Of a stretch of DNA of 64,000 nucleotides, positions 7,700-45,990 are shown piece by piece. The translations under genes were made by a program, and so were the position numbers. Each line of letters opens with the position of its first letter. The first letter of the stretch is position 1. This DNA comes from Amphibalanus amphitrite (lineage: Eukaryota > Arthropoda > Thecostraca > Balanomorpha > Balanidae): the NCBI RefSeq assembly GCF_019059575.1, contig NW_024881709.1, positions 496,001-560,000 on the forward strand, given 5' to 3'. The notes under the pieces were generated by a model that searched no databases, was not told where the DNA came from, and saw only the letters and a program-made list of their open reading frames with translations.

Positions 7700-13171
<5,472 letters not shown>

Positions 13172-24246: not shown

Positions 24247-24329
24247 GGTGCGCCGTCGGGAGACAACTGTCTGTCCCGGCTGCCCGAACATGTCTGCCCG
24301 GACCCAGACAGCACTGCACTCTGTCAACT

Positions 24330-26560
24330 CTGTGTGTATACTCGTATAAACACCGACAGGGTAAACCTACTTGATATTGCCCTGCTGCAATCTTCGAGAA
24401 AAAAAAAAAAACGGGCCTAATGTAAACGACAAGCGTGTGTGATACCTCAAACGTACTGAAATATGTAAACATATAGGTTCTGGTGCAGAATCTGAGGCAT
24501 CAATGTCTCATATTCTAGGTATCATTATATTTTAGTCTTTGGCCACTGTCCATGGTCGGCAGGAGATTCTTTGTGAATGGTCTGCCAAGGAGCTGGTACA
24601 AATTCCTACCTTCCCACTTTACATTATCAGGGATGTTGATATAATCTAAAAGTATTTTGTTTCGGGGCCCGCGTTCTACATACATACCTATGCACCCATA
24701 TTGCGGGCTACACGGCCTTTTATAGCCCGCGCCCATAGAACGGGTTAGGGTCGTGCCCCAGCATGTGTACCTAAGGGATGCGATCCTGGAGAAGAGGTAT
24801 GCAGTCTGACTGGCTAGTCCCCAGCTCGGCCTGCATGATAGTTGGAGTCGCCAACTTTGCGGATTGTCGGCGACTTTCAGCGACTTCTGCTACCCTTAGT
24901 TGCAGCTGCTGTTGGTCGTGGCTCGTGATGGTGCTTCTAGCAGTAGATGCCCGCGGTCGATCGGTCAGCAAGCTTCAAAACTGTGCTAAGCAGCGGCGTT
25001 AACGGTCGTAATCCTATATATGTACCTATCCTACATAGCCCGGCCGTATAGGTACGGCCTATCGCTCCGAAATTCGTAGCTGCCTATCACTTGTCAGATA
25101 CAACTACCATAGGTAGGTATGTTTGTATGTATGTATGTAATTATGTGTGTATGTTTGTATAGGTAGGTATTGACATCAAAAGCCTTCCATATATGGCGTA
25201 TACCCTTGATCTACTTATGAACAGTTGTAAAATAGTTTGCAACTTATAAGACGAAAAAAAAATCGTTTTTGAATAATCTTTGGTTGTTAATGATCAAAAT
25301 AAGAACATAAACAGGCTAAATTGGCGACCGACATTTCTCTATATGCGCCAAATGAGCCCTGCAGGGCTCGTAGGAGTCAAACTCATTCTCGTAGGTACCC
25401 ACTCGGGCCACTATTCACTAATATTAAAAAACGGTGAATACTGACTCATAAATGTGGCGAAACGTTCTGATTTTTAAAATTAATTAAAATCTAGAAAATT
25501 ATTAGCAAAGCAATGGTAGGAAGTAGGAACTAGGAAATAAATGAGCTCACAACAAAAAGTTTGTTCATTTCAGAACCACCGTGCTATTATCATTTTGTAG
25601 CCTTTTGTCTATTATTTTGATCATCTATCGAATCACCTGCGCCATAACTGTATATATTGTCTCCACTGTACAAATAATTAATAAATGCAAACGCTTTTAG
25701 TCAGAGGGATCGGTTTTGAGATAAGTAAGTTTAAATTAAGTATTGATGGCTTTCCTTATATATGTTTTTCAAATACGTTACTGTTCTTATCTTAAGCCAT
25801 TGCAGTCTTCCTTTCATTTCACCTGTTAGGAGGCTTTCCTTCTTATGTGATTCAATGTGGTGATTTCAATTTCAATTTCGGTCCCTTCTCTGGTTTAAAG
25901 TTCAAGTTGACCGTTGAGGTGCTTATTCATGTCATATTCTACATCGAATTTTTAAATAATTACATGCGTTGAATCAACCATTTTCGGTCAGACTATTGGG
26001 AGGATCTCATCCAGCCCTCAACAATTTTCTTTCAAAACACCAATCCATTTATTGAATGGGCAGCTGATTGTGACGCCTAGAACTTGCAGAAGAAAAGCCG
26101 TTTTCCTATCGCCATTTTCGAGTCAATTCTTCGCCCAATTTAATCAAATCACACTAATTCCTAGTGGAAAATGGAAGCCTTTTCTCTCTGATAGGTTGAA
26201 GCGATACCATACCGCAAGTACCGGCTTGTTATACCGTTTTTCACCCTTAGTAGCGGGTCTGCATTTATGCCCATATATGGTCATCAAAGGTCCATTTATT
26301 TACCAATCATTTTTTTATCTTCGCCTCATAGTTTCCCCAACTGATATGTGATAATTGATATGCATTCATTGAATATTATTCTATCCTGATCCTGGCTTTC
26401 AAGAAAAGCTGCAAAAACAGTATCTTGTAGACCTAATTCTATGCATTTTAACATCAATGACCATATCAATATGATCAACTTCAAATATCTAGTTTAGAAA
26501 AACACTAGAGGTAAACCACACGCCAACTTGCCATTGACCTAACCATCCTGCGGCCTCCCC
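24330..26560. other. intergenic, divergent SVWC / BTB promoter interval
   Basis: AT-rich sequence without a recognisable gene. It includes a short TATG/TAGG-rich microsatellite (25110-25172). Minus-strand TATA-like bases around 24341-24346 could serve the SVWC gene, but no clear initiator follows. Confidence 0.4.
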
Positions 26561-26566
26561 TCTTCC

Positions 26567-26569
26567 AGG
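26567..26569 (+). other. 3' splice site before the BTB start codon
   Basis: A pyrimidine-rich CCCCTCTTCCAG/G lies directly before ATG (26570). The first coding exon therefore follows at least one non-coding 5' exon, not identified here. Confidence 0.65.
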
Positions 26570-26755
26570 ATGTCTGAGAGCCAGGAATTTTGTCTGCGCT
26601 GGAATGACTTCCACAGCAGCTTCCACATGTCGCTGGAGGCGCTGCGTGGTGACGACTCATTCACAGATGTCACTCTCTCGTGCGGCGGGCACCTGTTCAA
26701 GGCACATAGGGTCATACTCTCAGCTTGTTCAGCACACTTCAAGGACATACTCAAG
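26570..26755 (+). CDS. BTB-BED transcription factor, common exon 1 (BTB N-terminal half)
   Basis: 62 codons, starting MSESQEFCLRWNDFHSSF, the signature N-terminus of the arthropod lola/tramtrack/Broad/mod(mdg4) BTB group, and running through SFTDVTLSCGG and FKAHRVILSACS to FKDILK. It ends phase 0 at AAG/GTGAGC. The BTB domain dimerises or oligomerises and positions linked DNA-binding domains on chromatin. It is the common 5' exon of at least four predicted isoforms whose ends lie at 30.0, 32.2, 33.6 and 44.5 kb. I cannot assign an orthologue: the BTB half resembles the whole group, and the BED ends do not match lola (C2H2) or mod(mdg4) (FLYWCH). Confidence 0.92.
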
Positions 26756-27624
26756 GTGAGCGAGTGTTATGCCTGTTGCCACTGGTTTTTGTTGTTGTCA
26801 TCTTCCAACCTTCTGAAGCTGTATTCAGCGGCCCAGACACCTGTTCATACTCCGTATGAAAATTTCGGGCCTCTGGATGGATTCGGTCGCTAGCTGTGCA
26901 CACCACCATGAATGATTACCGACCATGGGGTGTTAAAGTTCCAACTATTAGCAGCTTGAGTGTTAGTTGTTTGATGTAAGTGGCTCGGAACTGTTGTGGT
27001 GCACCCCGTGCTATGGGCGTGTCCGTGAATGCCAAACCTCTTCAGCCGTTGTTCTTCTTCCCATTTATCATCACGTCTCACATAGTTTTTGTTGAGACAT
27101 ACCTCCGCCATCTAACCGCCTATCACCGTGTTGGGTCCGTTCCAACAGGAGTTACATGCCCCTACCGATTATCACCCGCCCGGTGCGTTCCAACAGGAGT
27201 TCCATGCCCCTGCCGAGTATCACCCGCCCGGTGCGTTCCAACAGGAGTTCCCTGTCCCTACCGAGTATCACCCGCCCGGTGCGTTCCAACAGGAGTTCCC
27301 TGCCCCTACCGATTATCACCCGCCCGGTGCGTTCCAACAGGAGTTCCATGCCCCTGCCGAGTATCACCCGCCCGATGCGTTCCAACAGGAGTTCCCTGCC
27401 TCTGCCGAGTATCACCCGCCCGGTGCGTTCCAACAGGAGTTCCCTGCCCCTGCCATCACACGCCCGGTGCGTTCCGACAGGAATTCCCTGCCCCTACCGA
27501 TTATCACCCGCCCGGTGCGTTCCAACAGGAGTTCCCTGCCCCTACCGAGTATCACCCGCCCGGTGCGTTCCAACAGGAGTTCCCTGCCCCTGCCGAGTAT
27601 CACCCGCCCGGTGCGTTCCGACAG
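26756..27624 (+). other. intron 1 of the BTB-BED gene
   Basis: Donor GTGAGC at 26756 and acceptor CGACAG/GAG at 27623-27624. The last 490 bp are a 48-bp minisatellite. An acceptor further inside (CCGCAG at about 27636) would also stay open but would drop residues normally present between the two BTB halves. Confidence 0.75.
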
Positions 27625-27628
27625 GAGG
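27138..27628 (+). repeat. 48-bp minisatellite, about 10 units, carrying the 3' splice site
   Basis: The GTTCCRACAGGAG motif recurs at about 27138, 27186, 27234, 27282, 27330, 27378, 27426, 27470, 27518, 27566 and 27614, that is every 48 bp except one 44-bp step (27426 to 27470). The last copy is the acceptor of BTB exon 2. In frame, the unit reads as a 16-residue repeat like EFPAPTEYHPPGAFQQ, so it looks coding but more likely is intronic. Confidence 0.9.
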
Positions 27629-27819
27629 TGCCGCCGCAGCAGCACCCGGTGATCGTCCTGCCCACCGTGGAGCGGGACGTGATGCGTGCCGTCCTCGAGT
27701 TCATTTACCGTGGCCAGGTGAACGTGCGCCAGGCGCGACTGGGCGCCTTCCTGCAGGTGGCCGAGACGTTCGCCATCCAGGGACTGGCCGACGAACAGAC
27801 CAAACGCAACTCGGCGAAG
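27625..27819 (+). CDS. BTB-BED transcription factor, common exon 2 (BTB C-terminal half)
   Basis: 65 codons, phase 0 at both ends (acceptor CGACAG/GAG, donor AAG/GTGGGT). It reads EVPPQQHPVIVLP, then AVLEFIYRGQVNV and LGAFLQVAETFAIQGLAD, the conserved second half of the arthropod BTB domain. Joined to exon 1 it gives an unbroken BTB fold of normal length (about 115 residues). It ends in a basic NSAK stretch. Confidence 0.9.
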
Positions 27820-28211
27820 GTGGGTGGTGTCGCACGGTGGGAGATGTACTCGCGTTAGTGTCGGTGCTGATTGGGGGAGGGGAGAGACTGGGGTGGTTAT
27901 TGAGGAAGATGGTCGTGCAGTAAATGGTGCATGGTGGTCAAAGTGGACAAGATAACGCTTGTCAGAAAAAAAAAATGTTTGTTTTCGGTAATAGGAACAT
28001 TGAAGTTTATATGTGTGTAAAGTTGTTAAGGTTGAAGCAACGTTAGGTATTTGTTGTTTTTAGAACACTCGATGGAACAATGAAAAACTTGTTTTCGCAC
28101 GTTGACCGTCATGTGTCGCTGTATTATATTTTTGTTTCGCTAACATCGATTCCGTACTGTGACCTCTTCATGAGCCTGACCTAATCGTAACCCCACCCTG
28201 ACCTGTTGCAG

Positions 28212-28482
28212 ACCCCGGAGAGGTCCCGATCCTCGGACGCCCCGTCTCACCAGCCCTCCTCCAAGCGGCGGCGCGCCGAGCCGCAGCCAGACCCTGGGCC
28301 GATGGGCGGTGCCGGTCCTCCGCCTCCTCCCCCGCCGCCGGCGCCGCAGCAGCAGCGCAGCGCCGACAGGACGATGGGCCTGGACCTACCTGTGAAGCCG
28401 GAGCCGGAGTCGATGCTGGACGAGCTGGAGGAGATGCTGGAGCCGCAGCCGGACCAGGCCGGACTGGAGGCGCTCTCGGAGG
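28212..28482 (+). CDS. BTB-BED transcription factor, common exon 3 (linker, NLS, acidic segment)
   Basis: Acceptor CTGTTGCAG/ACC (phase 0) and donor GAGG/GTGAGA (phase 1), about 90 codons. It encodes a Ser-rich start, a basic cluster SSKRRRAEP that fits a nuclear localisation signal, poly-Pro and Gln stretches, a VKPEPE sequence matching the SUMO consensus (hydrophobic-K-x-E), and an acidic, helix-prone segment MLDELEEMLE. This is the linker expected between a BTB domain and a DNA-binding end. The phase change here sets the phase-1 entry used by all terminal exons. Confidence 0.8.
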
Positions 28483-28821
28483 GTGAGAGAGCGGGGCAGA
28501 GGGCTGGGAGGGACTGGAACAGGGTGTTGGGAGGGGCTGAGATAAAATGTGCTGGTATGGGCGGGGTAGAATAGAATAGAAAACAAATAGCATAGAACTT
28601 GAAAGAATGAGAAGAATGGAACGGTGGTGATCATCGTTATGGGCAAGGTTTGGTACTTTCGTCTGTTTGGCGTCGTTGTGCAAATGTGTCTAGTGCCCAC
28701 TTACCCTCGTTAAATGTAAAACGCACCTGTACAGACCAGGCAATATGCCGATATGTGTCGCGTGCCATGTAACTATGTGAGATATATCGCCTGACCTGGC
28801 GTAATGGCGTATTGGTTTCAG

Positions 28822-28872
28822 CGCATGGCCTGATGGCGGTCACACAAGAGGACAGCGGAGGATCACAAGCCA
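28822..28872 (+). CDS. BTB-BED transcription factor, probable common exon 4 (17 codons)
   Basis: A 51-nt symmetrical exon (phase 1 in, phase 1 out) between GGTTTCAG and A/GTGAGT. It encodes AHGLMAVTQEDSGGSQA. Because it is symmetrical it may be constitutive or skipped without changing frame. Support comes from the paired splice sites and matching phases; it is too short for a domain. Confidence 0.6.
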
Positions 28873-29941
28873 GTGAGTACAATGACGCCCTCCGCTCGGT
28901 CTCCGGTGCACCAGAGTGCACCATTTCCCTGCCTCTCTAGCACAGCCTTCTATCCTTCCAGTGAAGCCTTCTACCTGTTTATTTTCTCATAGGTTTCCAA
29001 TGGGTCACTAGTTCATTTTCTCAAAGCTTTCCTTTTTCTTTTATATTTCCTTGTTTATCTAGTTTGTCCCTGTATCTTGCCTTCATTTCGATCTCTCCTC
29101 TGTGCATAGACTTCCGGTTTTCCTGTCCGTCCACACTCTTCGGACAGCTAGGATGCTTGCATGCAATGACCGGACCCACATCGGGAGCAACTACCTGAAA
29201 AAAACAACATAAGAATATTTTATCTTGGCGCACGTCCTTTCTAGGTTGTATTTCCTTTTCTATGTATTGGACGTGATTTCTACGTAGGCTGAATTCTCAG
29301 AGCTCACGCTGCAAGCCAGCCGCGGGGGCGTAAGGTTTTGTTTATGTTCCAACTCGCGGTATGACGAGCGGGTCGGGTTTATCTGGGCACGGCCTGCCTG
29401 TCTGCGATGGACTTTTTGGTGGACCGGCCGCCTTCTCAAAGTTTTGTGTATATTTGCTAGCCGCTTGGGGATCTTAGACACTTGATATAGTTTGAGCATT
29501 GCACGGGGATGATTTTTTGATAGAGAAAGGCCATAACTTGTGGCAAGCGCGACAAAATGTGACAGACGCATTTAATGCAGATGCTTGGAATGGAACGAGA
29601 CTGGACATCAATGGCGAATAGCTGTGGCGAGAGTGATGGGAGACATGCGGTAGAGGAGGAGAATGTCTTCCTGATCGCTTGGAACAGTGTGATACCGTTA
29701 GCACTTGATCCACTGAACATGGTGCTTATTGAATTATCCATCCTGCCCTGGGATAAAATTGCCAGCCTAAGGCGTTCTTTCATTTATAGTCTGCCGAATC
29801 GGAGAGCGAACACGGATGCGATAGTCTTCGCTGTCGTTTATTGATTGGGATGCCGTCGTGATGATGACGCGCAGCTCGGTTCCTGTTGTGGTACCGGCTG
29901 TGCTGGCGGGCGGGGCTCAGCTCCCCGTTCCCGGCCCGGTG

Positions 29942-29971
29942 CCTCCGCCGCCGCCGCCGCCGCCGCCGTCG
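29942..29971 (+). repeat. short (CCG)n tract before BED exon A
   Basis: About nine CCG triplets lie 40 nt upstream of the acceptor of the first BED exon. They would be non-coding if splicing is as proposed. Confidence 0.8.
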
Positions 29972-30012
29972 CCGTCCGGGCCGCTCTGACTCGCTGCTCG
30001 CCCGTGTTGCAG

Positions 30013-30374
30013 GCACGGACGGCCTGGCGGCGGCGATGGTGGCGGCGGTGGTGGCGCCGGCCGCCGGCCGGCCCGGCCTTCCGCCGCGCTCCCTGGTCAG
30101 AGAGTACTTCACCGGCAGCGGCCAGGACCGGCTGTGTCGGCTCTGCGGCCACGTCCTGCGGCTGAACCGGCAGCTCTCCACGTCGGGCATGTGGCGCCAC
30201 ATGCGCGTGCGCCACCCGGAGCTGGTGCAGCAGGCGGAGCCGGCGCCGTGTCGCTCGGAGTCGGCGGGCAGCCTGTGGGGCGCGCCGCCGACAGAGGCCA
30301 GCACCGGCCCCGTGGCGCAGCGGGTCGGGGACAGCGCTGCCGTCCCCGACACCGACTGGTTCTTCAAGTCGTAG
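30013..30374 (+). CDS. BTB-BED transcription factor, terminal exon A (BED finger 1)
   Basis: The acceptor GTGTTGCAG/GC gives phase-1 entry, and TAG is at 30372-30374. About 120 codons: an Ala/Pro-rich lead, then the BED finger with its aromatic start LVREYF, the zinc ligands CRLC and HMRVRH (C-x2-C ... H-x4-H) and the family-typical MWRHMRVRHPEL helix. A Ser/Pro-rich tail ends DTDWFFKS. BED fingers bind DNA in insulator and promoter factors such as BEAF-32 and DREF. As the first of four interchangeable ends, it would give an isoform of about 355 residues. Confidence 0.85.
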
Positions 30375-32166
30375 CGGCTCTCGGTTCGGACTGAACGTGA
30401 AGCGAAATGTTTATCATGTTTTATATGCAAAGAAGCACTACGATCATTTGTACTAATTAGTGGTAGCAGCTAAGCATGGAAGCTCGATGCTAGCTGGCTA
30501 TACGGCGGCAGAGAATGGGTCTTTCTACCGAATCATGTATTTGTGTATTATCGGCGTTTGTGGAGATGAAGCGCAGTTGATTCTCAGGGTAATTAAGATC
30601 CAGCTTATCCGCGAGATATTTGGAAGGATGAGTTGGCCAGGATATGACAACGTTGGCTGTCGATGCTCGGCGTGGCATTTGTTGGAAAATTTACGTATTT
30701 CTGGCCAGTGACCAGCTTGTTCAGATTCGCAGTTATTGTGTCCCTGGACAAGCCCCCTTCAACTGACTGAAAAGCGAGCTACCAAAGAATGTGATTTATG
30801 CAGGACTCAAATTCAAATGGAATACACAACCTATGCTTATGACGTATGAGTTTCTGTTAGCGTAACCATCATCCAAGTATTTTACACGTAGTCTTGTATT
30901 ACAATTGTACTTTCGATCACATTAATGTTTTTATTGTTGAGCAAGTTTCGCATAGCCTGTTCAATGATATCGGTTCCAGATAACCCTGACACGCTTATTA
31001 AAGTTTGGTTCACGCATGTTTACAAAACAGATTGTAACTTATGCCTTTTGCTTGTCACTTATTGTCAGATGTGGTTCACAGTAGGACCCTGTACCATTTT
31101 GGAAGAGTTGCTGCTTGAATCTGATAATTATCAGACGGCCGTTTACCTGTTATATCCGTGCCTTGGATGCGTACGGTGCGATATGTCCTGTATACTCTGG
31201 CATTGCGTGTGCTGTCAATCGTCTCAATGGAAATCGTTGCCATATTCTAAGCCCCCCCCACACACACACACACACAACTCCTAATGGCGAAACTACGATC
31301 TATCATTTGATGGCAACTGTACAGACGCAGGTAGTCGTTCTGTGTGGTAGTTGTTGATCGTTTTACGTGCCTGAGGACGCATGAACCGTTCATATTGAGC
31401 CTGGAATACATGCGTGAAGTGCTGATTAAGAATTGATTTCGCATTGGTACGGGGGTGATAAGCTGCATATGCATTCTCTTTAGCTTGGATAGGTACTTTT
31501 CTCCTCCTCCATTCAGGGACATTCTTATCTTAATTTTCATTTCGCCTTCCCTCGTTAAGCGCCTTCCTCCCCGCTCTCTTGCTTTCCCACTCACCACATT
31601 TCCACACTGCGTTGTGCGAGTCATAAGACCCGTATCTGTGCCCCGAGAGAGTCCGTGCAGTAATTCGTACATCCCTGTCGCCCTATGCGCCTCCCCAGCT
31701 GGGAGTTCGCATTGGATGTCGGCTGGAGACCAAGGAGTTCGATTTCAGCAGTTGCGGGCTCCGTTGGTAATGGGCGACGATGGGAGTGATTACTGATTAG
31801 GCAGGTTGGGCGAGGCCGATGGTTGTTGACTGGGCACTGAGCAGTGGCAGGGTCAGATAGGGCGGTTTGGGCTAAGCATTGGTGATGGTCGGCGGGGTCA
31901 GTTCTGATCGGAGCGGGTAATGTGGATGATGACTGCTTTATGCTAGATTTGAGTCGGAGAGTTGGGGACTGTTGTTATCGTTGGCTTGCGTAGGTCAGTC
32001 GGGCGGATGGAGACTGGTGCCGAGTTGTGTAGCTCAGTGTGGCAGAATGGGACTGGTGATATTGTTGGACTTGTCGGCCAGTCGGTGCGGGTGGCCGGTG
32101 CCGGGCCCGGTGCCGGTCGGCGGTCCGCGGCGGCGTCTGAGCTCAGTGCGGTCGGCCGTGTTTCAG

Positions 32167-32657
32167 ACGCAGTGCCAGCGCCGCCGCGGCCGGCCCGGCC
32201 CGGCGCCCGGCCGCCCGTCTGGATGTACTACGTGCGTCTCTCGGACACCACCGCCTCGTGTCGGTTCTGCGGACGCGTCATCCGCGGCGCGCCCACCTCC
32301 AGCGGCAACTTCTGGGTGCACCTGAAGCGGCTGCACGCCGCCGACATTGCGGCGCTCGGCGGGCAGCACGCGGCGCTGGCGGGCTCCTGGCGAGAGGCGG
32401 CCGGCCGCCGGCGCCCCGCGCCCGCTGACGAGCACAGGCTGGCCGCGCAGCGACGGAGCGCGGACGGTGACGGTGCCGTGTGGATGGGGCAGCCGGAGCA
32501 GCCCGGCGCGGCGGAGACGCCCTGGATGTCGCCACCGGAGCTGCCGCCTCCGGCACTGCCGCCGCCACCGGCTCTGCTCCCCCCGCCTGTGTCTCAGGAG
32601 GTTTCGCCACCGCTGACTCAAGAGGCTGCGCCGGCCTCCTCTCAGGCCCTGACGTGA
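32167..32657 (+). CDS. BTB-BED transcription factor, terminal exon B (BED finger 2)
   Basis: The acceptor CGTGTTTCAG/AC gives phase-1 entry, and TGA is at 32655-32657. After a Pro/Ala/Arg lead, the BED finger reads WMYYVRLS, CRFC (C-x2-C) and FWVHLKRLH (H-x4-H). A long Pro-rich tail with QEV/QEAAP-like repeats follows, giving an isoform of about 397 residues, the longest of the four. The finger differs from exon A at most non-ligand positions, so the target site is likely different. Confidence 0.85.
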
Positions 32658-33638
32658 TCCGAGCGAAAACTGACGGTGTCTGAGATCCGCTCCTTTTCTG
32701 CCCGGTCAGTGGCAGTAGCGAGAACTCTCTGGTTGTAGAGCGATACAGCCCCTATCGGATGCACTGCCGATGTGGATGACGGTGCGGCAGCTTCAGTCAG
32801 TCACTCTGTGTGTGTTTGGCTGGTCCTCCTACTCTCGTGCCCCTGTCGCTGCATGAAGGGTGCTTTGTTCGCACCCTGGCCGAGGCCTGATGGCTTCTTG
32901 CCCACCGAACCCACCGTGTAGATAGCTGGTTGCTTCGTGCTTGTGTTGTCGCTGAACTTCTGGTACTGAGCCGCCCACTCGTTTAATCTCTTCCCTGCCA
33001 TTGTCAGGTCAGACAGTTGTTTTTTCCGAGGTCGTGTATCATTGCTGTAGGATGCTAGTCATCCATAGCTCAGGGAAACTCCGCTCCCTCTTCTGTCAAG
33101 GGAGTGGCTTCGCCTGACCTATTTAGAGAGCTTTGCCAAGGCTGGTGCCAGCTTTGTGTTTTCCATCATCGATTTTTTTTTATAGCTTTCGTGGTTGCAC
33201 ATCCACATGCCATAACTTGCATCCTTTGGATTGTATTTAACTATGCATTGATGACTGGTACTGTATTGAGGCCGACGTGCGGGACAAGGTATGTAAATAG
33301 AAAGAGCGTGAACCTTGTTTGGTGTCTGGTAGCTGTAGTTGAGGTCACGCTCGCGAGTGAACACTTTTTAACTCAGTTGTTGGCTAGCAGTTAAATGCGT
33401 GAGATATAACTTATGCTCGAATTTGAACAGAGGTGATCAATTCATAGTCGCAATAACTTTTCTCAGAATGATCAGTTTCAACGTCTCAAGTCACTATTTC
33501 GTACCCTTTGACCTTTACAATGTGTAATAGGTCCGTAGATTTTGGTTCAAAGGTTTGCTCCCTCTCGCTCCGCCAGATGTCACTGCTGTAGGGTTTCCGT
33601 GGCACCCACCAGATGTCTCTGGCCTCGCTCTGTTGCAG

Positions 33639-33913
33639 TGGGTTTTCCGCCGCCGGTGCGTCAGCGCTCCCAGGTGTGGTCCTACTTCAACCCCCGAGCC
33701 GAGGGCCGACTCCAGTGCCAGATGTGCGCTGCCATCGTCGCCTACTCCAACAACTCAACGAGCAATCTGTGGGGACACCTGGGGCGCTACCACCAAGAGC
33801 TCTTCGCCACTCTCAAGTCCGAACGCTCCCGACAGGAGCGTCAGGAGCACGCTCCTGTCGGGAGCGTTCTCCTGACGCTCCTGTCGGGAGAACGACAGAA
33901 CGCCCCTGTCTGA
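33639..33913 (+). CDS. BTB-BED transcription factor, terminal exon C (BED finger 3)
   Basis: The acceptor TCTGTTGCAG/TG gives phase-1 entry, and TGA is at 33911-33913. The finger begins VWSYFNP and has CQMC and LWGHLGRYH (H-x4-H), with a Ser/Asn-rich loop. The tail after ELFATL is encoded by a strongly self-complementary DNA segment (33826-33890). Just upstream, a CTGCTGTAG/GGTTTCC stretch resembles a decayed duplicate of the acceptor and exon start. Confidence 0.85.
33826..33890. repeat. 22-bp perfect inverted repeat inside BED exon C
   Basis: CTCCCGACAGGAGCGTCAGGAG (33826-33847, split here only as arm limits) is exactly mirrored by 33869-33890. The 21-nt spacer contains a third copy of the CTCCTGTCGGGAG core, so either arm can pair with it. 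The segment is in frame and encodes the C-terminal tail. Confidence 0.92.
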
Positions 33914-34546
33914 GATCGGCGGCCTCTAATCCTACCGATACCTAGGGCGAGGTGCACCCGGTGTACTCTGCCGCGGCCGCGGGCGAGGCGCGCCTGGTGT
34001 ACCCGGTCGGAGTCGTCCGGTCCACTGCTGCCTCCATGAGGCTATACCATTGGTGATGGATAGCATCGGGAATGGAGGAAATCTCCCTAATGTGAGCTGC
34101 TTGAGAGAATGATTTCCGAATCTCCGGAGAGATGGCGGCTCGTTGCGGTTCATTCACTGCGCCAGTTTAGTTGATGATGTGACGGCGGGGGCCAAGACTC
34201 ATGAGTGCAAGCGATTGGAAAGTGGACTTCCCCCGGAGCTGAGTATTCTCTATTTTCGCCGGCTCTCATGCCGACCTCTGGTTTGAAAGCATTTGCACGA
34301 ATGGTGAATTCGTTGGCTAATTATATTTTGTTGATATGATAGCATATATTGTCTTATTTTTATTGGTTTTTAGGCATACATACATAATCGAATCTTCTCA
34401 TGTTTTATCAGGTCATGGCATCCTGATGAGTGATGCAAGATTTACGAATGTGCATTTAGAATAAGGCCGAACTGACTGTTGATATTTTTCTTCGATGTAT
34501 CATGCATAATACAGCATGTGTCTCCTAGTTTCGACCATGTCTAAGT

Positions 34547-34552
34547 AATAAA
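34547..34552 (+). other. possible polyadenylation signal for terminal exon C
   Basis: AATAAA about 635 nt after the exon C stop codon, the first canonical signal I see on this strand after it. Confidence 0.35.
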
Positions 34553-34559
34553 TCTACAT

Positions 34560-36325
34560 TGCGAAGACGGAACCAAACCCGATAGTCTGTGAGTACCTAT
34601 TTTGGTCACCAGCTGGGGGAAAGGCAGGATGTGGTGGGAACTATTCGAAGGGCTTTTTATCTAGGAACGAATGCGGCAAATGTGTCAAAGCATCTAATAT
34701 CTGTTCTACATACAGCGGGAGGTGCCTCGGTGCTCAGGTCGATTAAATATACGTATGGGGTGGTGGAGACAGATAACTGTGAGCTTATTGCTCCTCCTTA
34801 GCTAGCCAGTTGGATGAAACCACCTGGGAACCATCGCCCATTACATCACTGCGCAATGGTTTTACGTAGGTGCCTATCCCGAGACAGCCAATACCAGTCC
34901 CGATCTCTACCCCTCTCCAAGGCTGCCCGACAGTGCCATTCAGGTGACCTCGGGAGCCATCAGTGATTTCGCACGTGCTGCCCCGGCGGGTCAGTGCCTC
35001 CGTGACGCTGCATGCAAACGGCAGCTGAACGAATTTCGGCCTGCCACCGATCCGTTCAGGTCCAAAATCGAACATAATCGCAGTCTGGCAATTTGCCAAT
35101 TGGCGCTTGCTGAATATCAATGTGGACGCTCTGGGAACGTGGCTAGGCTGAATTTCATCGGCACCGGTCCCGATCGCTCAGTCAGCATACGAGATGGGCG
35201 CTGGAGGGGTTAGGGCGGGTCGCTGGGAGAGACAGGGTGAGGGATCAGGGCCGCGCCTGACTGTAAATGCTCATTACTTGCAGATATCTCCCCAGTGAGC
35301 ACTGAGTCGCCCTTATACCAGACAATAATACCAGACAACCGTGTTGTCAATGGAGCTCTGATACGCGTGCCAATTACGTAACGTTCCCACTTCCAGCGAG
35401 TTTGTCAATGCGAATACAACTGCTGGTCTCTATCACATCTGCGCAGTTTTCTCCGGTCAATGATCAATGCTACTCGTAATATGGGTTTAACAAGAGATCG
35501 CCAACCTTCTCTCCTACCGGATAAACTACGCACTGCATCCCAAGGGTAGAGATGAAAGAAACCCAGATACCCACCGCGGACAAACAGGTTACGTTTAGTA
35601 GAACTTGTAATGTATACCGCATCACATATGTCGCCGCCATCTGAAGAAAAGTAGCGCGGCTCAACTGCGGCCTTTGATGGGCTTTGATGTGCTCGTTGGG
35701 AGCAGATGCCATCAGCGGATTGGGACCGGGACGGTGGCTGACGGTAATGGGGAGCGAGGGTGGTGGGGAGAGGGCCGGTGGTGGGACTGGTGGGATATGG
35801 GAGACGCTTTGATGCCGCGTCTGATAAACGACGCAGAGTCGTGTGAGGATGGCGAGGTAGGATGACATTGATCGTGGGAAAGTGAGTAAACGGCGGTAAA
35901 AGGGAATATATGAAATGCTTACCTCGGCATGCGATATGACAAGTACCTACGAGTATTCAGAGAATCGTCATCGATGATAGACAAATGGGTGAGAAAAAAA
36001 ACTCATGCCACAAATTGAATGGGAGTGGGAGTGAACTGGAGCCTAGAGGTAATGGTGCTTTTATACATACGTGAGATCAAGGTATATAAAAACACTCGTG
36101 AGATAACATTAGCTTACTAAAGAAGCTCTAGCATGTAAATTGTAAGCATGGCATTTGTAGCATGGCACTTCATTAGTAATTCCATGGATGCTAATTCCAT
36201 GGTAATTCCAAGGCATTAGTGCCTTTGATCGCGTGCTGCCAGTGTCTGACTTAATTCCGTAATTCATGTGTAATATGGAGTACCGGTGCGTGTGATCCCG
36301 GAAATTGTCCCTTGGTTCTTGGCTA
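34560..36325. other. intron/intergenic between BED exons C and D, no gene seen
   Basis: Short open frames only, with no splice-flanked cysteine-rich exon recognised. It lies within the predicted span of the longest isoform. Confidence 0.4.
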
Positions 36326-36330
36326 GGACC

Positions 36331-36636
36331 GGTGATTCCTCTCAGGAAATGGCTCGTGTCTCCGTGTCTCTTGTCCACTGGCGTATGTCTCCCCGGAGAT
36401 CATCTTTATCTCTGCGAACGCCGCGCCGGTGTCTCTCGGAAGGATGTCCTTCAGGCGGTAATTCTGCGATCCTTGGTATCTCCCTGTAGAGCCTTCTTCC
36501 GTCAGTAATTATATAACGGCTGGTGTCTCCCGGAAGAATGGCCTCCGGTCAGTTATTCTATAACCACATGGTGTCATCCGGAAGAGCGCCCTGGGGCTGT
36601 AATTCTATGGCAGCTGGTATCTCTGGGGACCGGTTT
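36331..36636 (+). repeat. degenerate ~47-bp minisatellite
   Basis: Six or so units of 46-49 bp, each starting GGTGTCTCYCGGAAG or a variant and ending in a TAATTCTATAAC-like stretch. Confidence 0.75.
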
Positions 36637-36640
36637 CTCG

Positions 36641-36752
36641 GTCCGTGAACCCTCCGTGAACCGTCCGTGAGCCGCCGTGAACCGTCCGTGAACCGTCCGT
36701 GAACCGTCCGTGAACCCTCCGTGAGCCCTCCGCGAGCCGCCCGTGAACTGTC
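36641..36752 (+). repeat. ~10-bp minisatellite (GAACCGTCCGT)
   Basis: About ten tandem units of a 10-11-bp motif CCGTCCGTGAA with CCCTCCGTGA(G) variants, directly after the 47-bp repeat. Confidence 0.8.
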
Positions 36753-36811
36753 CGGGTCGTACCGAGAGTCATCTCATAAGCAGGGCCGAGTTTCAGCCGG
36801 GCGTGATCCAA

Positions 36812-36986
<175 letters not shown>

Positions 36987-37539
36987 CGGCCGCCGGGCTC
37001 CTCCCGTCGCACACTGGGCCGATCGCCAGGTCTAGCACGACAAGGGTAAAAAAATCGAACTTTGTGGATGTGCAATGAAACCTATACCAATTTGTTCAAA
37101 AATGATCATACTACATTGCTGTGGTCTTTGTTTTCCAACACAATTGCTATTTCATGGCGAAAACTCAGCTTAAACACGAACTTCGGAATCGTTTGGACCG
37201 AACTCGTCCCCCGCACTCTTCGACAACGTATCTTTGATCCACGAAAACAATCACAATTTGAGGAGGAATTCCACATTTATATACATCAAACGATAGCTCC
37301 GGGTCTGCAGAAAACACATAACCACATGAAAATGGCGAACTCTTATTTGGTTATGATGTATTGGCACCGCAAAGATTTAAAGACGAAAATATAATTTCAC
37401 ATAATTGATGTCACACACAAATAGACTTTTAAAAAAAGTACCGCGGAGTACCGCTTCGAAAATCTCGCTACATGTCAATGATTCATTGCACTACAAGATC
37501 CAACAGTCATTTTTTGCGACTTTTTGCGACTTTGGATGT

Positions 37540-37770
37540 AGCAGCCAAACATCAACCCGCGCCGGACCGGTGCTCGGCGTCAAACGCGCCGGGCCGGGAG
37601 ATGTTGATTGAACACTCCCCTTCTAACTCGGCTCTTGGGCCACATAGCGACACGTAGTAAGTGGCATTCGAAAGAACGCCCGAAATTCCAGATGACGTAA
37701 TTAGTCATTTCTAGGTCAGGTCAAAGGTCACGTCACCAGAGGTCATCAAAGGTAAAATGTTGCATATATC
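37540..37770 (+). repeat. dispersed repeat related to 18850-18990
   Basis: It shares the order CTAACTCGGCTC, TGGGCC, CACGTAGYAAG, GTTCGAAAGA/ATTCGAAAGA and then AGGTCA-rich sequence with the interval beginning near 18860, so it is a second copy of that repeat family. Confidence 0.6.
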
Positions 37771-37924
37771 AACATTTCTCGAAAACCGGCCCTTACCTCG
37801 GGGACCAAAAGAGCTACATCGTCGCGGAAAAATGCATTCAATTGCTCTTTTGGCGGTCTTTCTGAAATAAGCCCTCACATTTGGCTTAATCCTCGCCCCT
37901 AGTGGTGTTTTTCCAGCCGCGAAC

Positions 37925-38710
37925 GTATAGAAGGGGTCCGTTGGACCCCCCCGCCGTTTCGCCCCTGATCGAGCTAGAGCTTCGCGGAAAAGACGAGCGT
38001 GTTGCCCGTGACAAGAGGAAGCTGATGATAACCAATTGTAAGGTTCTAGGTCATCGGTTGACCTTCCAGGTCAGGTCAATGACCCAAAAGTCGGGAAAAT
38101 CGAGACCTGTTAGAACGTCGTAAGGGGTGGCTGCTATGGGTTTTTTGGGTGCTGATCACGAATATAATGTTATTTACGATCATAGATGATGTCTTCATAC
38201 ATTTAGGCCAGGTCGGGTCAGGTCAGGTCGGGTCAACCAGTAAGGGTTTTGCCGGGTATTTGCAGTAGGTGGCAACCGCCTCTGACAGCTTTGTAACATG
38301 TTAAGAAGGCACCAAAGCTACATAGTAAATGCTCAAATGATTGCTAGATTCGAATTCAGCTCCAAAAACTAGCCTAGAAACATGTAAAACTCGAAAAAGT
38401 GAACCAAGGTCATTTACCTGACCTTCTGGTGACCTTGACACCCACCCTAATGCATGGGGGCAACATAATATACCATGTTTGAACGCTTTAAACCAAGAAA
38501 AGACTGCAAACCCGCGGCTAATGCGAGCCGACATACGCTGAATCGCGATTCCGGTCAAACATGGTCTCGAAAGAAGGTCACAGGTCAAAGATCATTAAGG
38601 TCAGGGTCATGACATTTTCAGGTTAACTGTAAAAGTAGTTATCGCGAGGGCACTGAAAGTTTCGTTGCGATCGGCCGCTTTTTACGCGAATTACTTGCGA
38701 AAAACCAAGG
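37925..38710 (+). repeat. ~800-bp dispersed repeat, copy 1
   Basis: Its left end carries a GGGGTCCGTTGGACCCC hairpin. The interior has AGGTCA-rich segments (38065-38080, 38207-38238, 38410-38445), then a block ending CGGCCGCTTTTTACGCGAATTA. The whole is repeated in inverted orientation at 42975-43800. Confidence 0.75.
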
Positions 38711-38719
38711 GTTCCGTTC

Positions 38720-39900
38720 GAAGATTCAGGCCCCGTCGCGCTAGAATGGCATATCGGCCCACTGTGCGTCGCTCCCTCACTCCTGCTGCTGGCTGTTGTC
38801 AGGCTACCGGCTGTGGAAGGCTCGAAACTCGAAAACACTGCATTGTAAGCATATCCTCCACAGGGACTTACCGCCCAACCTCATTAGCAAATGGCCTGCT
38901 GTGTCGCCGCAAGCCGCTGTAGTAGGATGTAAAATTAGAGCTCTCGACACCGGCTTTTGCCTGTTTTGTCGCTGACTTTTAAGAAGGCGGTGGCGGTGTT
39001 TCTCAGATGTGTAAATCGTTAGGAGTCTGGTTCACGGCGAAATGTCGCTGTTGAAGGTGTCTGGCGGGGTGCTGCTGCCGCGGCCGCCGGGCGTGATTAC
39101 ACGTGCTTCAGTCTCAAGCAATTATTGTCCTATTAAAAACCACTCTGCTTTATGTATGTAGTAGTTATCATATCTCGTTTTTCTACTACTACTCGTTTTT
39201 CAAAGAACATATAAGGTGCAAACATTTTGCATTTTCTTTCAGATGTAAAAGGAACACATAACATGAGCTTATCATACAATTTAAATATTATACTGCATTT
39301 AATTAAGTTCTTGACTTAATGCTTCAGGCACCTACTAAACACTTAAAATGTTTGCTGAAGTCAGCGGTGTGGTTTCTATTATTGCACCAATAAATGGATG
39401 GTCACAAACACTGGCTGCTGTTTGTGATAGTGTACAATAAATAACACCGTTCTGGCTATCGCAGAGACGACTGTAAGCGGACACGGCGGTTCGGTGCAAT
39501 CTTTATTGGATGTCAACCGTTAGTGAGCGCCCGGAAAACTATTTGTGACACCCCCCTCTCCCTCTCCCCCCCCCCCCCGATGGCCGCGGGCGGAGGCCGA
39601 AGAAAATGTGGTCCAAAGCCTCCACAATAACTAAAACGGGCCTGGTATTAAAAATCAATTATTTTTCTGTAAGAAATGTTGTATTGACCAATGAACAAAG
39701 TTGATGTAACATTGTGTAGGAATATTGTGCCTATCCACTTTTCTTTTCTTTTTGCGGCAGAAGGAATGCTTTTTTGAACCTCTTCTCAGTGGTTGATGGT
39801 TGTTTATTCACTATTGTCCATTCACCATGACGCATAACTGGTAGCATAGCACTCTCTCCAGAAGAATTTTGGATTATGGCACGCACAGGATTTATACTTT
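38720..39900. other. no gene seen; contains a C-run
   Basis: Mixed sequence with a poly-C tract at about 39555-39580. No exon is supported. Confidence 0.35.
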
Positions 39901-39914
39901 TTACTCTCTCCCTC

Positions 39915-40019
<105 letters not shown>

Positions 40020-40029
40020 ACTTATCTCC

Positions 40030-42940
40030 TCTCCCCCCAAGCTGACCTGTGTCTGATATTCTCATGACAAATGATGGATGGCGTACTCCAGCCATCTCAT
40101 GAAATCACCATGTTCAAAAATACAGCCAACTTCTTTTCACGAGTAATGCCAACACGGAGCTAGAGTGATGGATGTACAAGTTAATCTGGTGTGACTGCGC
40201 CGCTATCTCGTAATTACTGAGTGCAGGGAACCGCTGCAATATTACTGTCGTCATTAAATTCAGTGAGCTGTGCCAAGCAATTTGCGTTTGTATTCATGCA
40301 TTGACCTATCGGTCCCAAGTTGATTTGTGCATTGTAACTGCCTCATAATTTGGTCGTCACGTCTCCGCTATATCAGAAAGCCGTCATGTGTGAAGCTCTA
40401 GGAGTCCTGCGGCTGCAGGGGAGGCCGAGGATCCTGAAAGCGCTGTTGGGTGTGAGGGACGACCGTTGGCTGGTCGGACTGGTCAGCAGCGGTGGGGGGT
40501 CGACCTCTGAGAACGGGTCGTCCCCTGGGCGATGGGGACTGGTCGTCCTCTCAGTGGTTATTTCTGCCGACATTCACTGGACTGATGTGTTCATTAGCGG
40601 ACGAGCGGACGGGCCGCGGCAGCCGTGTGTGGTCGCATACAGGTGCCTTGGACACGACTGGCTTCCCGAGCTGTCAGCCACTGCCCATTGCTGTAAGGCA
40701 CAGACTGTCACACCTGTCACACCTGTCACGGCTGTCATTCCTGCGAGGTAAAGACTGCCACTGCTGTGTCACTGCCGCGCATTGAAGGCTGCTTTGTGCT
40801 TACAGCACTCACAGGATAGACACTTAACCTGATATCGCACATATTGACTGCCAGGGCCCCCTAACTGAAGTACTTGCAGCACAGCAAACAGCTAAGCTGC
40901 AACTGCTTTAGCATCTCGATTAACAGCTTTATTATTGTGCTTTACGGCCTGAGCCTTGTTCATATTGCTGCTCACCTGCCCGCACGAGGTCCAGCGCTGA
41001 GGTTTACTGCCGCTACCAAGCGGTGCTCTGCACGGTTTAACGGTTTACTGCCAACTTAGGGGCACCTTCGGCTTATATTTAGCGGCCCTGTCAGCTGCTG
41101 GCTGGGTCGAACGACAGCGTGTGGGCGATGGCCGCGTCACCCCTCGTCTCCTTTCACCTTTGTCCCGGCCGTTGCTCAGGACCTGCCTGCTCCGTGTGGC
41201 GTTGAGAGGTCTGGTTTGGTCATACAAAGGCCGACAATAGATGCGGCGTGGACACCGGTCTGTCTCTCGCACCGGGTTGGGAACAGGTCGAGGCCCTAGG
41301 GGCGCGCCGACTACTATCCTAACTCCGCAAGATAGACACAGGAACCAGCCTCCCGTCTACATACCCCATATGCTCCGGTAGAGCAATGCAGAGCAGACAG
41401 ACATAAACACCAGTTGTTGTCTACCGGTGCAGTGGCTTGAAGCGGATAGAGCAACACAGGGCAGACAGACGGAGACATCTTTCTCTGTCCTCCAATGGCT
41501 CTTAGACACAGCCAGAACGATGAACAGAGGGACAAAGTCCGGTAGCGGAGACGAACTAATAATTGGACATCGGCTGTCAATCCCGGCAATCCTGCCCCTG
41601 GCGTGTGCAGAAAAAGAGCATACAGACCGTACTGAGAAACACCAATAAGGAAGAAATACCAGCTACTAATCTCCTCAAAGAATATCCCTGCCATGACGAC
41701 AATATGAGCATGGAGCATTGAGTGGTACGTCTTACGGGTGGTTTTGTCAGTTCCAGGATTTGGAAATCTGCCAACGGCCAATATTTGTCTTTATCGCTAA
41801 GCTTACCCAATACCCATCGATCAGTGGTTGAGACATTCACACACCGGTGCTATCGTCAGTATTCAGCCGACAGCAATAACGGTCTCATATCGGCCAAACT
41901 TGATTACCTTGTCCTCTGAGCTACCATCCGTCTTGGTTATCGTAGACATTGTCGTGGACACATGTGTGCTCCTCTGTAACCTTGGTCGGTCTTTTATACT
42001 GACTCGTACATGCAGGGTACTACGGCCTTAGCTCCTTCGCTGTATTAAAGTGGGCTTCAATCGATATAATCATCTAATAGCGAATAGAAATAACCGCTTT
42101 GCTTCGCGGCCGGTAGTTTATCATCCCACCAATAGATGTCGCGGTGATCGAACGCCTGGATGGCTATGCTGCGCCGCATTACTCCTCAGCTTCCATTTCT
42201 CTCCATAGCACAGTGGGGATTTTTCCGATCTAGCGCCTATTAATTCAAAAAATATTTTTTGGATTTTTGTTTATTTTTTGTGTCAGTAGGGCTAAGAAAT
42301 GTCTGAATTTTTCATATATGGCATTGTTTTATCTGTATGTCCACAGCAAAACTAGGAAAAATGCGCCCAAAGTTCACACTCATGCGTGATTACTCAATGG
42401 GCTCAGCAAGGCCCGAAAGTATAGCCATGTATAGCTCAATTTCATTGTCCTGTCCTGTTGGTTTTAACCTTGCGAGGTCTTAAAGTTGCATATCGTCTGA
42501 AAGGCACCTTTATTAGGAATGGAATGGCAAACAGAAAGTATGCCACAACCTTACTAAGGTCACAAAAATGCCCTTTACAAAAAAAACCCTTACAGACACC
42601 ATATTGAAGGAATGGTATTCTAAATAAATGTAGGAAATCAACAATGTTCTCCACACTTTTCCACTCCGAAATATATCATATCGAATTCGCCACTTTCTTC
42701 TGCACAAGACAACGCCTAGTTTGGCTGCCGAAACTTGCCTGAACACGGAATATTCTCATTAGAGTATCTTAACACCCCACTCGAGGAGCGCTAGGGCAAA
42801 CAGCACGATATAGGAATGTTCCGGACATAGGCGAATAATTTTACTTCGTGATTTATATGATGCATATTTTCTGAGACACATTCATTAGGAAAAGGATGAC
42901 AAGCGTAAATTATACATACCGTAACCTTATTAACCATCGC
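40030..42940. other. no gene seen
   Basis: The longest frame (40350-40751) shows no domain or cysteine pattern. A short direct repeat around AGAGCAA...GCAGACAGAC occurs at 41380 and 41447. This stretch lies in the intron before BED exon D. Confidence 0.35.
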
Positions 42941-42945
42941 ACTTG

Positions 42946-42976
42946 TGGGGAGGGGGAGGGGGAGGGGGAAGGGGTC
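42946..42976 (+). repeat. G-quadruplex-type G-tracts
   Basis: Five G-runs of four to five bases separated by single A or short spacers (GGGGAGGGGGAGGGGG...), abutting the end of the inverted repeat copy. Confidence 0.85.
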
Positions 42977-43800
42977 GGATAAAACCCCATGGTTTTCCGC
43001 AAATTACTCGCGCAAAAAGCGGCCGATCGCGCCGAAACTTTCGGTGCCCTCGAGATCATCAATTTTACATCTAACCTAAAAATTTCATGACTCTGATCCA
43101 GCTGACCTTTGACCTGTGGCATATTTCTCGAGACCATGTTTGGCCGGAATCGCGATTCGGCGTATGCTAGCTCACATTATCCGCGGTTTCCAGTCTTTTT
43201 GTGGTTTTAAACGTTCAAATATGTGAAATGATGTTGGTGCCATGCATAATGGTGGGTGTCAAGGTCACGTGAAGGTCAAGTCAAGGTCATTGACCTTTTG
43301 ATGACCTTGGTTCACTTTTTCGAGTTTTACTTGTTTCTAGGGTAATTTTTGGTGCTGATTTCGAATTTAGCAGCCATTTGAATATTTACGAAGTAGTTCT
43401 GGTGCCTTCGTTCCATGTTACGAAGCTATCAGTAGTAGGTGACACTTCTATGGATGGCCGGCAGGACGCCTACTAGTTGATCTAACCTGACCTGACCCGA
43501 CCTGGCCTAAATGCATAAAGACATCGTCTGTGATCAAAACTAACATGAAATTCGTGATCAGCACCCCAACATACCCCGTAACACCCTAACTTTGCGAAGT
43601 TTCAAGAGGTCTCGATTTCCCAACTTTAGTTGGGTCATTAAACTGACTTGGAAAGTCAGCTTATGACCTTGGACTTTGAAATTGGATATATTCGGCCTCA
43701 TTTCGTCATAGGCAGCACGCTTGACTTTTCCGCGAAGCTCTAGCTTGATTAGGGGCCAAACGGCTGAGCAGGGGGTCCAATCGCACCCCCCTATACTATG
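42975..43800 (-). repeat. ~800-bp dispersed repeat, copy 2 (inverted)
   Basis: Read on the minus strand it follows the same order of blocks as 37925-38710, including the GGGGG...CCCCC hairpin end (43770-43798), the TAGAGCTTCGCGGAAAAG-like block and the block near the other end. Spacing between copies is about 4.3 kb. Confidence 0.75.
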
Positions 43801-43809
43801 TTGATTATG

Positions 43810-44529
43810 CACATTTACAGGTAAAATTCTCACCAGGACACACCAGCCAACATCTGTGCACAATCTGGCTACAATTCTACCTATGGTTTGCCCTCTACGA
43901 ATAAATACGTGCTAGATCGGAAAAATCCCCACTGTGCATAGATGTCGTGCGAGGAGCGCCTGAATAGGTATGCTGTGCCGCATCGCACGCACACCGCTGA
44001 CGCTGGCGCAGTTCGGTGTGGGAATATTCGGAGCGTAGTAGTTTGGCGCGGGCAATCCTTTGTAGACAAGAATTGGCTTCTATGCATTTCAGGTTACCTA
44101 CGAACAGTGGTGTATGTAAGATTTCAATATAATAACTATGCTTTTAAAGATATCTGGCTGGTTATTCTGTCACTTCGCTTCCCGATACCGCTCTCATTAA
44201 TCCCTACCCGACAGCAATTATATTATGTGTTTTATCCCACGGCTTTACAACATCCGGTGGCTTCTCTACCGCTGTTATGCTTGTCAGTGGTACAGGGAAT
44301 CTATTATCCAGTATCCACGTCAGTGATAATTTGCACTAATCGGCTTTGTTTCTGTCACTCTGAAATGCTGCCCTGCTACATACTGCGGCTAATGCATCGC
44401 AATGTATAATCCTGTCAGGCTTACAATGATGGTCGTGTAAGCGCGGTATACTGCCACCAGCGTCAATAAACCACGCCGCACAAACACGGCAATATCACTC
44501 CCCCTCCCTCCCTCCTCCCCGTGTTGCAG
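43810..44529. other. no gene seen; intron upstream of BED exon D
   Basis: AT-rich sequence ending in a CCTCCC-rich pyrimidine tract (44495-44520) that serves as the polypyrimidine tract of exon D. Confidence 0.45.
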
Positions 44530-44837
44530 ACTTTAAGCGCCGCTGCCGCAGCCTGGTCTGGGAGTATTTCGAGCGCATCACACCGTTCGACGCTCGCTGT
44601 TTGGTGTGTGGCCGCGTGTTCCGTCAAGGTGCCTCTGGTAACACGACCAACCTGCGTGTTCATTTGCACACGCATGACGTGTACCTGCGTCCGCTGGCGG
44701 CGGGTGGTGGGCTGGTCGGCGGACCGACAGGCAGCGGGGTGGGGAGGGCCAGTCTGTCTGCCGCACAGAGTCAGCTGATACAGATACAGATAGAGGACGT
44801 GAGTCAGGGGACCCTCAAAGCGGATGGTAGCGAGTAG
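44530..44837 (+). CDS. BTB-BED transcription factor, terminal exon D (BED finger 4)
   Basis: The acceptor CCGTGTTGCAG/AC gives phase-1 entry, and TAG is at 44835-44837; about 102 codons. The BED finger reads RSLVWEYFERI, CLVC (C-x2-C) and LRVHLHTH (H-x3-H). The Gly-rich tail carries SQLIQIQIEDVSQ, which differs from the Pro-rich tails of A-C. It lies 10.6 kb beyond exon C with repeats between. A polyadenylation-type AATAAA at about 45504 lies 670 nt downstream. Confidence 0.85.
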
Positions 44838-44839
44838 CG

Positions 44840-45990
44840 ACGGCGACGTTTGGCAGGTTTAGGGCGGTGGAGTTGTGACTGTCAAAGAGGGCCAAACACA
44901 GCTTGATGTAAGGCCGTGTGTGGGAAGCGGGGACGACAGATGTGAATGGATCGGAAGGACTTTGGTCGTATGGGTTATTGTATGTTCCAGAGATGGATAA
45001 GAAAAGACAGTGTAGAGCGTGGCAGAAGTCTGCGAGACTTGGAAACATTTATGAAGGGTGGGAAACAATGTTTCCTTACTCGATAATGTTAGGCCGCTGG
45101 AGCCAACGCAAGATGTTGCAGATGCAGATCATGATTTAAATGTTTTTTTTTTTGTAAATATTAGGCCTGTACATGTGTTAAGGACCAATAGATTTGGTTG
45201 TGCTTTTTTTCTTTTTTTCTAGCTTTCATGGGCGATCGGCAAATGTGATCCGCCAATCCATGTTGATTGAGTGCTGAAATAGACATCACTGATTGCTGAA
45301 CTTGTGTATTGTTGTGTTGATATAGGTCAATGTAGTGTCTGACTCTTGAGCTGGTGAGTCAAATCTGCTGCCGTGCTCGCCATTTGCTTCTGTGGTGGAT
45401 GACCTCCAGTCAGCCGGGCAGTGATTGTGTCGCATCAGGGAGAGCATGTAAAGTCAGTTTGAGTGGGGTGGATTGAATCCGCTTACGCCCCGATGCGTTA
45501 CGCAATAAAATTAATTAATTATGCCGCCAATGAGAAATTACTGGTCAGTCGATGAAGCCTACAGATGAAAGCTTACAGAACGTGGGTTAGGCCTCTGAAG
45601 CCAGCCTCTATTCGAAACTTCTTTGGTATTATTTCCTGGAATGCCATTATTGTGTGATGATTTAATAATAATTAAATAATTTAAATTGAGTAAGTAAAAG
45701 TAATTTTCGATAGTAGTTAGTTGACAGTTTAGGCTTGGAAATGCTTATAATTTGTCAGTTGCTATCACCATTCCAGCTATCATATTTGACATGAACCAGT
45801 TGTATGGTTGTCTTTACCGCAAATGCAAATTTTACAACGATGACCATATTCGGGTTGCCCAAACGTATTGAAGCAAACACCATGCAACATTGTTTAAAAA
45901 ACTAAAACAAAAAAAAAAAACACCATATTACTTCCTCAGTGGCACATGCATATTACCATTGGCTAGTGTGACCTTATCACATCTTCGCAA
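44840..45990. other. 3' flank of BED exon D, no further gene seen
   Basis: AT-rich beyond 45.1 kb. It likely includes the 3' untranslated region of isoform D. Confidence 0.4.
45504..45509 (+). other. possible polyadenylation signal for terminal exon D
   Basis: The first AATAAA after the exon D stop, about 670 nt downstream. Confidence 0.4.

Follow-up and report, generated by a model that had tools for sequence, protein, structure and literature searches.

A 64-kb stretch of the genome of the barnacle Amphibalanus amphitrite (contig NW_024881709.1; the whole stretch is called the window below) carries a BTB gene followed by four alternative terminal exons, each of which encodes a BED finger. 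We consider it very probable that this is a locus of the lola/mod(mdg4) kind, that is, one transcription unit with a four-way splice, in which BED fingers serve as the exchangeable ends. Its constant 5' BTB exons are followed by several in-phase terminal exons with their own stops, as in lola, mod(mdg4) and broad; the joins between them are reproduced in public isoform models; and a paralogous locus has the same design. A preliminary description of this DNA had proposed that the switch logic of lola and mod(mdg4) operates here with BED fingers, a proposal that fits both the exon anatomy and the public models; its supposition of a crustacean source was also correct, the species being a barnacle.

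Anatomy of the locus

Exon letters were read directly over positions 26400-34400 and 44300-45600 of the window. The first four coding exons (Table 1) form a module of 703 nt, whose whole codons specify 234 residues. All junctions are bordered by GT/AG, and the four terminal exons begin mid-codon, each at a phase 1 acceptor. When the module was joined in silico to BED1, BED2, BED3 or BED4, the resulting proteins of 354, 397, 325 and 336 residues, respectively, had a sole, terminal stop, and the frame stayed open in each join with or without the 17-codon exon. The coordinates, borders and frames initially assigned to the BTB exons 1 and 2, the linker and the 17-codon exon were all correct; sequence joins and Pfam also bear out the original account of four terminal exons that each have a phase 1 acceptor, encode a single BED finger and end in a stop of their own. 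The whole locus spans 18.3 kb, with the BED4 exon 10.6 kb downstream of the BED3 exon, and the G+C content of the BED exons is 0.62-0.76, compared with 0.49 for the window. An acceptor-like sequence (TTCCAG/G) stands directly before the ATG of exon 1 and suggests an upstream 5' non-coding exon.

Table 1. Exons of the BTB-BED locus and a possible 3' signal (positions in the window)
Feature	Position	Strand	Remarks
Coding exon 1: ATG, TTK motif FCLRWN, BTB first half	26570..26755	+	62 codons, phase 0 end; Pfam BTB 2.6e-10
Coding exon 2: BTB second half	27625..27819	+	65 codons, phase 0; Pfam BTB 5.1e-8
Coding exon 3: linker with basic KRRR stretch and acidic segment	28212..28482	+	Phase 1 end; low confidence in AlphaFold model
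Coding exon 4: symmetric 17-codon exon, phase 1-1	28822..28872	+	In 5/5 public models P0001-P0005 (locus and second copy)
Alternative terminal exon BED1	30013..30374	+	Pfam zf-BED 1.5e-5; join identical to P0001 (isoform X1)
Alternative terminal exon BED2	32167..32657	+	Pfam zf-BED 1.1e-7; P0005 (isoform X2, other contig): BED identical, tail different
Alternative terminal exon BED3	33639..33913	+	Pfam zf-BED 3.1e-9; join identical to P0003 (isoform X3); inverted repeat in tail
Alternative terminal exon BED4	44530..44837	+	Pfam zf-BED 3.1e-8; join identical to P0004 (isoform X2)
AATAAA, possible polyA signal, 667 nt past BED4 stop	45504..45509	+	Weak evidence

Public isoform models and a second copy

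Three public protein models agree letter for letter with our joins: P0001 (sex determination protein fruitless-like isoform X1) with the module plus BED1, P0003 (broad-complex core protein-like isoform X3) with the module plus BED3, and P0004 (broad-complex core protein-like isoform X2) with the module plus BED4. All three are placed on one 820,026-base contig and have a common prefix of 234 residues, after which they diverge. Because they are joins of one locus, their published names hide one gene. Near-identical versions of the BED1 and BED2 isoforms (P0002, bric-a-brac 1-like isoform X4, and P0005, ZBTB14-like isoform X2) are found on a 1,207,718-base contig, which presumably represents either the second haplotype or a recent duplication. 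The names fruitless-like, broad-like, bric-a-brac-like and ZBTB14-like can thus be corrected to isoforms of one BTB-BED gene. Neither an absence of BTB-BED joins nor a set of independent BED genes, either of which would have spoken against the preliminary description, is what these models depict: they join the module to BED1, BED3 and BED4 at the locus, and P0005 does likewise for BED2 on the second contig. We expect that RNA underlies these models.

Comparison of the two copies showed that none of the 209 residues in the BTB and the BED1 and BED2 cores had changed, whereas the remaining 300 residues had 9 changes (Fisher p 0.012). Two indels, one of 2 and one of 6 residues, likewise lie outside the BTB and BED cores.

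A TTK-type BTB module with a flexible linker

Exons 1 and 2, once joined, match Pfam BTB with an E-value of 3e-22, and by its sequence the module is a TTK-type BTB. FCLRWN at residues 7-12 fits the TTK motif FxLRWN and overlaps a strand at residues 6-10 of the AlphaFold model, ahead of the BTB core. According to PMC11426971, TTK-type BTBs are marked by FxLRWN in a beta strand N-terminal to the BTB core, and they form homo- and heteromultimers; nowhere in the main text of that paper does BED stand as a separate word. Block means of the predicted local distance difference test (pLDDT) were 77-94 over the BTB in the AlphaFold model of the BED4 isoform and 73-93 in that of the BED1 isoform; the linker scored mostly below 60 in the former, and the latter was similar. 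In a Foldseek search with the BED4 isoform model, the BTB part matched solved BTBs; ordered by E-value, the TTK-type domain of Drosophila CG6765 (8rc6_A), a hexamer, came fifth. Residues H69-P70-V71-I72-V73, with a strand at 71-73 in the model, may correspond to the hydrophobic strand of the dimer-dimer (hexamer) interface, which in LOLA includes I70/I72. Among the matches listed, the nearest named BTBs outside A. amphitrite were tramtrack/bric-a-brac-like proteins of Daphnia (43%) and Artemia (38%).

Four BED fingers as alternative ends

All four ends score above the curated gathering cut-off of Pfam zf-BED (20.6 bits). Their finger spacing is C-x2-C ... H-x4-H in BED1-3, and in BED4 the sequence H-L-H-T-H gives H-x3-H; BED1 has R where BED2-4 have W. 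BED was the only domain above the Pfam cut-off in the four ends, and the domains usual for TTK-type proteins (C2H2, HTH/PSQ and FLYWCH) were not among them. Across the rest of the window the scan covered a C2H2 pattern only, and gave one match, at 24263-24337, which we read as unrelated. No fifth BED was found in a six-frame profile scan of the 64 kb (1306 reading frames of at least 30 aa), the next match having an E-value of 0.042; since the profile was built from the four BEDs of the window and two from the paralogue, this result speaks to completeness, not to significance.

Among solved structures, the only sequence relatives listed for BED3 were ZBED1 (2ct5), the best, at E 0.0041, and the BED of Hermes transposase, at E 0.79. 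Mean pLDDT by block was 83-92 over residues 241-280 of BED4, 67 over residues 281-290, and 72-87 for BED1. Foldseek did not confirm the BED fold: no BED entry was seen in the best 50 of the 453 matches to the BED4 isoform model. Close to the BED3 stop, still within the coding tail, inverted repeats at 33821-33890 with arms of 30 nt (97%) and 21 nt (100%) could form an RNA hairpin.

The same design at a paralogous locus

The BTB-BED switch appears to be present twice in A. amphitrite. Models P0006 and P0007 (isoforms X2 and X4), on a contig of 536,745 bases, have a common prefix of 243 residues and two further BED ends, both above the Pfam cut-off, so that the paralogue has at least two; the linker and BED of P0007 are also present in P0028, an older model from a 573,434-base contig. 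The BTB module of the paralogue is identical to that of the window at 104 of 127 residues (82%), whereas BED ends within or between the loci are only 26-42% identical over about 46 residues. The ends are therefore far more diverged than the module across the two loci. A one-to-one pairing of BED ends between them was considered and rejected, as the best identities were merely 39-42% and gave no clear pairs.

Two further models touch the paralogue. P0008 (longitudinals lacking protein-like, on the 573,434-base contig) has the paralogue's BTB and, judged by eye, a segment resembling reverse transcriptase; Pfam found no reverse-transcriptase domain in P0008, and the join is probably a gene-prediction artefact. 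P0027, on a 2095-base contig and without a BED, contains a nearly unaltered BTB exon 2 of the paralogue.

A protein similarity search with the BED1 isoform had A. amphitrite proteins as its top matches; this search and a second one scored only about 8000 candidates sharing most words, so that absence elsewhere is weak evidence. Among the 30 distinct proteins listed, five combine BTB with BED by precomputed Pfam annotation, or seven when BED1 of P0001 and P0002 is counted, and all are from A. amphitrite. The paralogue's linker plus BED as query returned, at E ≤10, three proteins of 1476 candidates, again all from A. amphitrite.

Splice sites and 3' ends

The acceptors of all four BED exons, together with that of exon 3, read TGTT[G/T]CAG, a pattern of which the 64 kb contains eight copies on the + strand and three on the - strand; the nonamer GTGTT[G/T]CAG is confined, within the same 64 kb, to BED1, BED2 and BED4. 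The pattern was chosen after the sites had been seen and is therefore taken only as a hint that the BED exons were duplicated along with their splice sites. Acceptor strength was rejected as proof: a crude count of pyrimidines puts 1-20% of all 3531 AGs level with or above the BED sites, which is not decisive. AATAAA or ATTAAA lies 623, 634 and 667 nt past the stops of BED1, BED3 and BED4; as proof of separate 3' ends these hexamers are weak, since the + strand of the window has 50 of them.

About 10 copies of a 48-bp unit form a minisatellite at 27134-27627, which reaches the acceptor of exon 2 and has an acceptor-like site (CAG/GAG) in each unit. Of the 10 sites upstream, the nearest three (27481, 27529 and 27577) are open and in frame with exon 2, and their use would add 16-residue units to the BTB; P0001-P0005 all begin exon 2 at 27625.

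Other features of the window

On the - strand, at 22409-24366, three adjacent reading frames encode SVWC (single-domain von Willebrand factor type C) domains; a gene or group of exons seems to have been duplicated in tandem there. The hexamer TCTATC is repeated in about 145 copies at 12212-13079.

Weighing the alternatives

Several observations weigh against a single gene with four working BED ends. The NCBI isoform models that join BTB to BED are predictions, and among the proteins listed the BED2 model is found only on the second contig. BED1 is the weakest of the fingers, its Pfam match being limited to model positions 19-44. The best solved sequence relatives of BED4 are C2H2 fingers (Gfi-1, 0.0038), ahead of ZBED1 (1.1); Pfam favours BED for the same finger, at 3.1e-8 versus 0.41. 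No AATAAA or ATTAAA occurs between the BED2 stop and BED3, the first one standing 1890 nt on, past BED3. If the donor of exon 4 is left unused, about 20 codons run from 28873 to a stop, by eye a possible BTB isoform that lacks a BED. Finally, among the matches listed, no BTB-BED relative was found in another named species.

Some of these points suit an account, in our view an unlikely one, in which only some ends are used, BED2 (or BED1) being an exon in decay or a product of noise: the Pfam score of BED1 is the lowest of the four, and BED2 has neither a listed model on the 820-kb contig nor a close polyA hexamer. Public models exist for both ends, however, and in the second copy both fingers are unchanged whereas their tails differ.

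We give slightly less credence to an origin of the isoforms by trans-splicing, whether between alleles or between separate pre-mRNAs with their own promoters before the BED exons. The locus logic would be the same, the 10.6-kb gap before BED4 has room for a promoter, and mod(mdg4) and lola trans-splice in Drosophila according to PMC4667647. Yet all four ends lie downstream of the module on the same strand within 18.3 kb, so that cis-splicing is sufficient, and that source describes a Daphnia mod(mdg4)-like gene as cis-spliced.

It is highly improbable that gene prediction has joined the BTB to BED exons that are really independent genes, or that are left over from tandem BED genes or hAT transposons: the distance of BED4 from BED3 and the relatives of BED3 (ZBED1 and Hermes transposase) would suit this, but the four acceptors have the same phase with exons that begin mid-codon, public models across two contigs join all four BEDs to the same module, the second locus has the same design, and Pfam found no transposase in a non-exhaustive pick of 20 reading frames (101-183 aa) between the exons. 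Sub-cut-off Pfam matches in those frames (YlbE, 0.022; Pox_A30L_A26L, 0.0028) were taken as chance.

Proposed mechanism and significance

For a single gene with four-way splicing, we propose the following mechanism. The constant N-terminal half would supply a TTK-type BTB capable of homo- and hetero-multimerisation and a flexible linker. From the donor after 28872, splicing would reach just one of the four terminal exons, whose use would be mutually exclusive; each would add one different BED finger and a stop. The choice of acceptor, with the matching 3' end, would thereby decide the finger and yield at least four factors with common partners and regulation. The four fingers should recognise different DNA sites, and BTB multimerisation may offset weak binding by a single finger by gathering fingers of the same or different isoforms, so that one-finger isoforms could bind DNA cooperatively and in mixtures.

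As a tentative extension, which we consider less likely than not, a BTB switch family of the barnacle lineage, with at least two loci, may have recruited a BED exon, perhaps derived from a hAT transposon, whose multiplication then gave rise to the array of exchangeable ends. The vertebrate ZBED genes, which derive from the BED finger of hAT transposases (PMC7786948), offer a precedent for a transposon origin of the barnacle BED exon. If true, the mod(mdg4)/lola logic would have been invented separately here, with another DNA-binding class, and the ends would have diversified faster than the shared module. With ends 26-42% and BTB modules 82% identical, the two loci form a natural set in which to see how ends gain new DNA targets.

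Comparison with known systems

As described in PMC4667647, mod(mdg4) resembles the barnacle locus in its constant N-terminal BTB exon or exons and its many alternative 3' ends, mostly with one zinc-binding finger, and its end exons are tandemly repeated. Its ends are mostly FLYWCH and give at least 31 isoforms, some of them trans-spliced from the opposite strand, whereas the barnacle has four BED ends on one strand. The same source reports inter-allelic trans-splicing in lola. As here, lola combines a TTK-type BTB module with alternative zinc-finger ends, and its FxLRWN corresponds to the barnacle FCLRWN. The lola ends are C2H2 fingers, unlike the BED ends described here. Broad, tramtrack and fruitless likewise have TTK-type BTBs with alternative DNA-binding ends of the C2H2 class, and we know of no BED among them; broad and fruitless are the names that NCBI gave to several of the barnacle isoforms.

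ZBED1 (2ct5) is the best solved sequence relative of BED3, and to our knowledge neither ZBED1 nor BEAF-32, Ibf1 or Ibf2 has an array of alternative BED exons. PMC5094011 presents BEAF-32, Ibf1 and Ibf2 as proteins with a single BED as the DNA-binding module and lists no BTB for them, whereas here BED is joined to BTB; it also assigns FLYWCH to Mod(mdg4) and BEN to one of the Mod(mdg4) isoforms. In a crab transcriptome (PMC9754153), ZBTB and zf-BED appear only as two distinct classes of factor. In literature pairing BTB with BED, covered mostly as titles and abstract beginnings, no BTB locus with alternative BED ends appears, in keeping with the first description, whose author was aware of none. 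The switch logic of one BTB with many tails is thus known, and its use of BED fingers as ends is new as far as this literature extends. This suggests that the BTB switch is not bound to C2H2 or FLYWCH ends, and that arthropods can plug in another class of finger.

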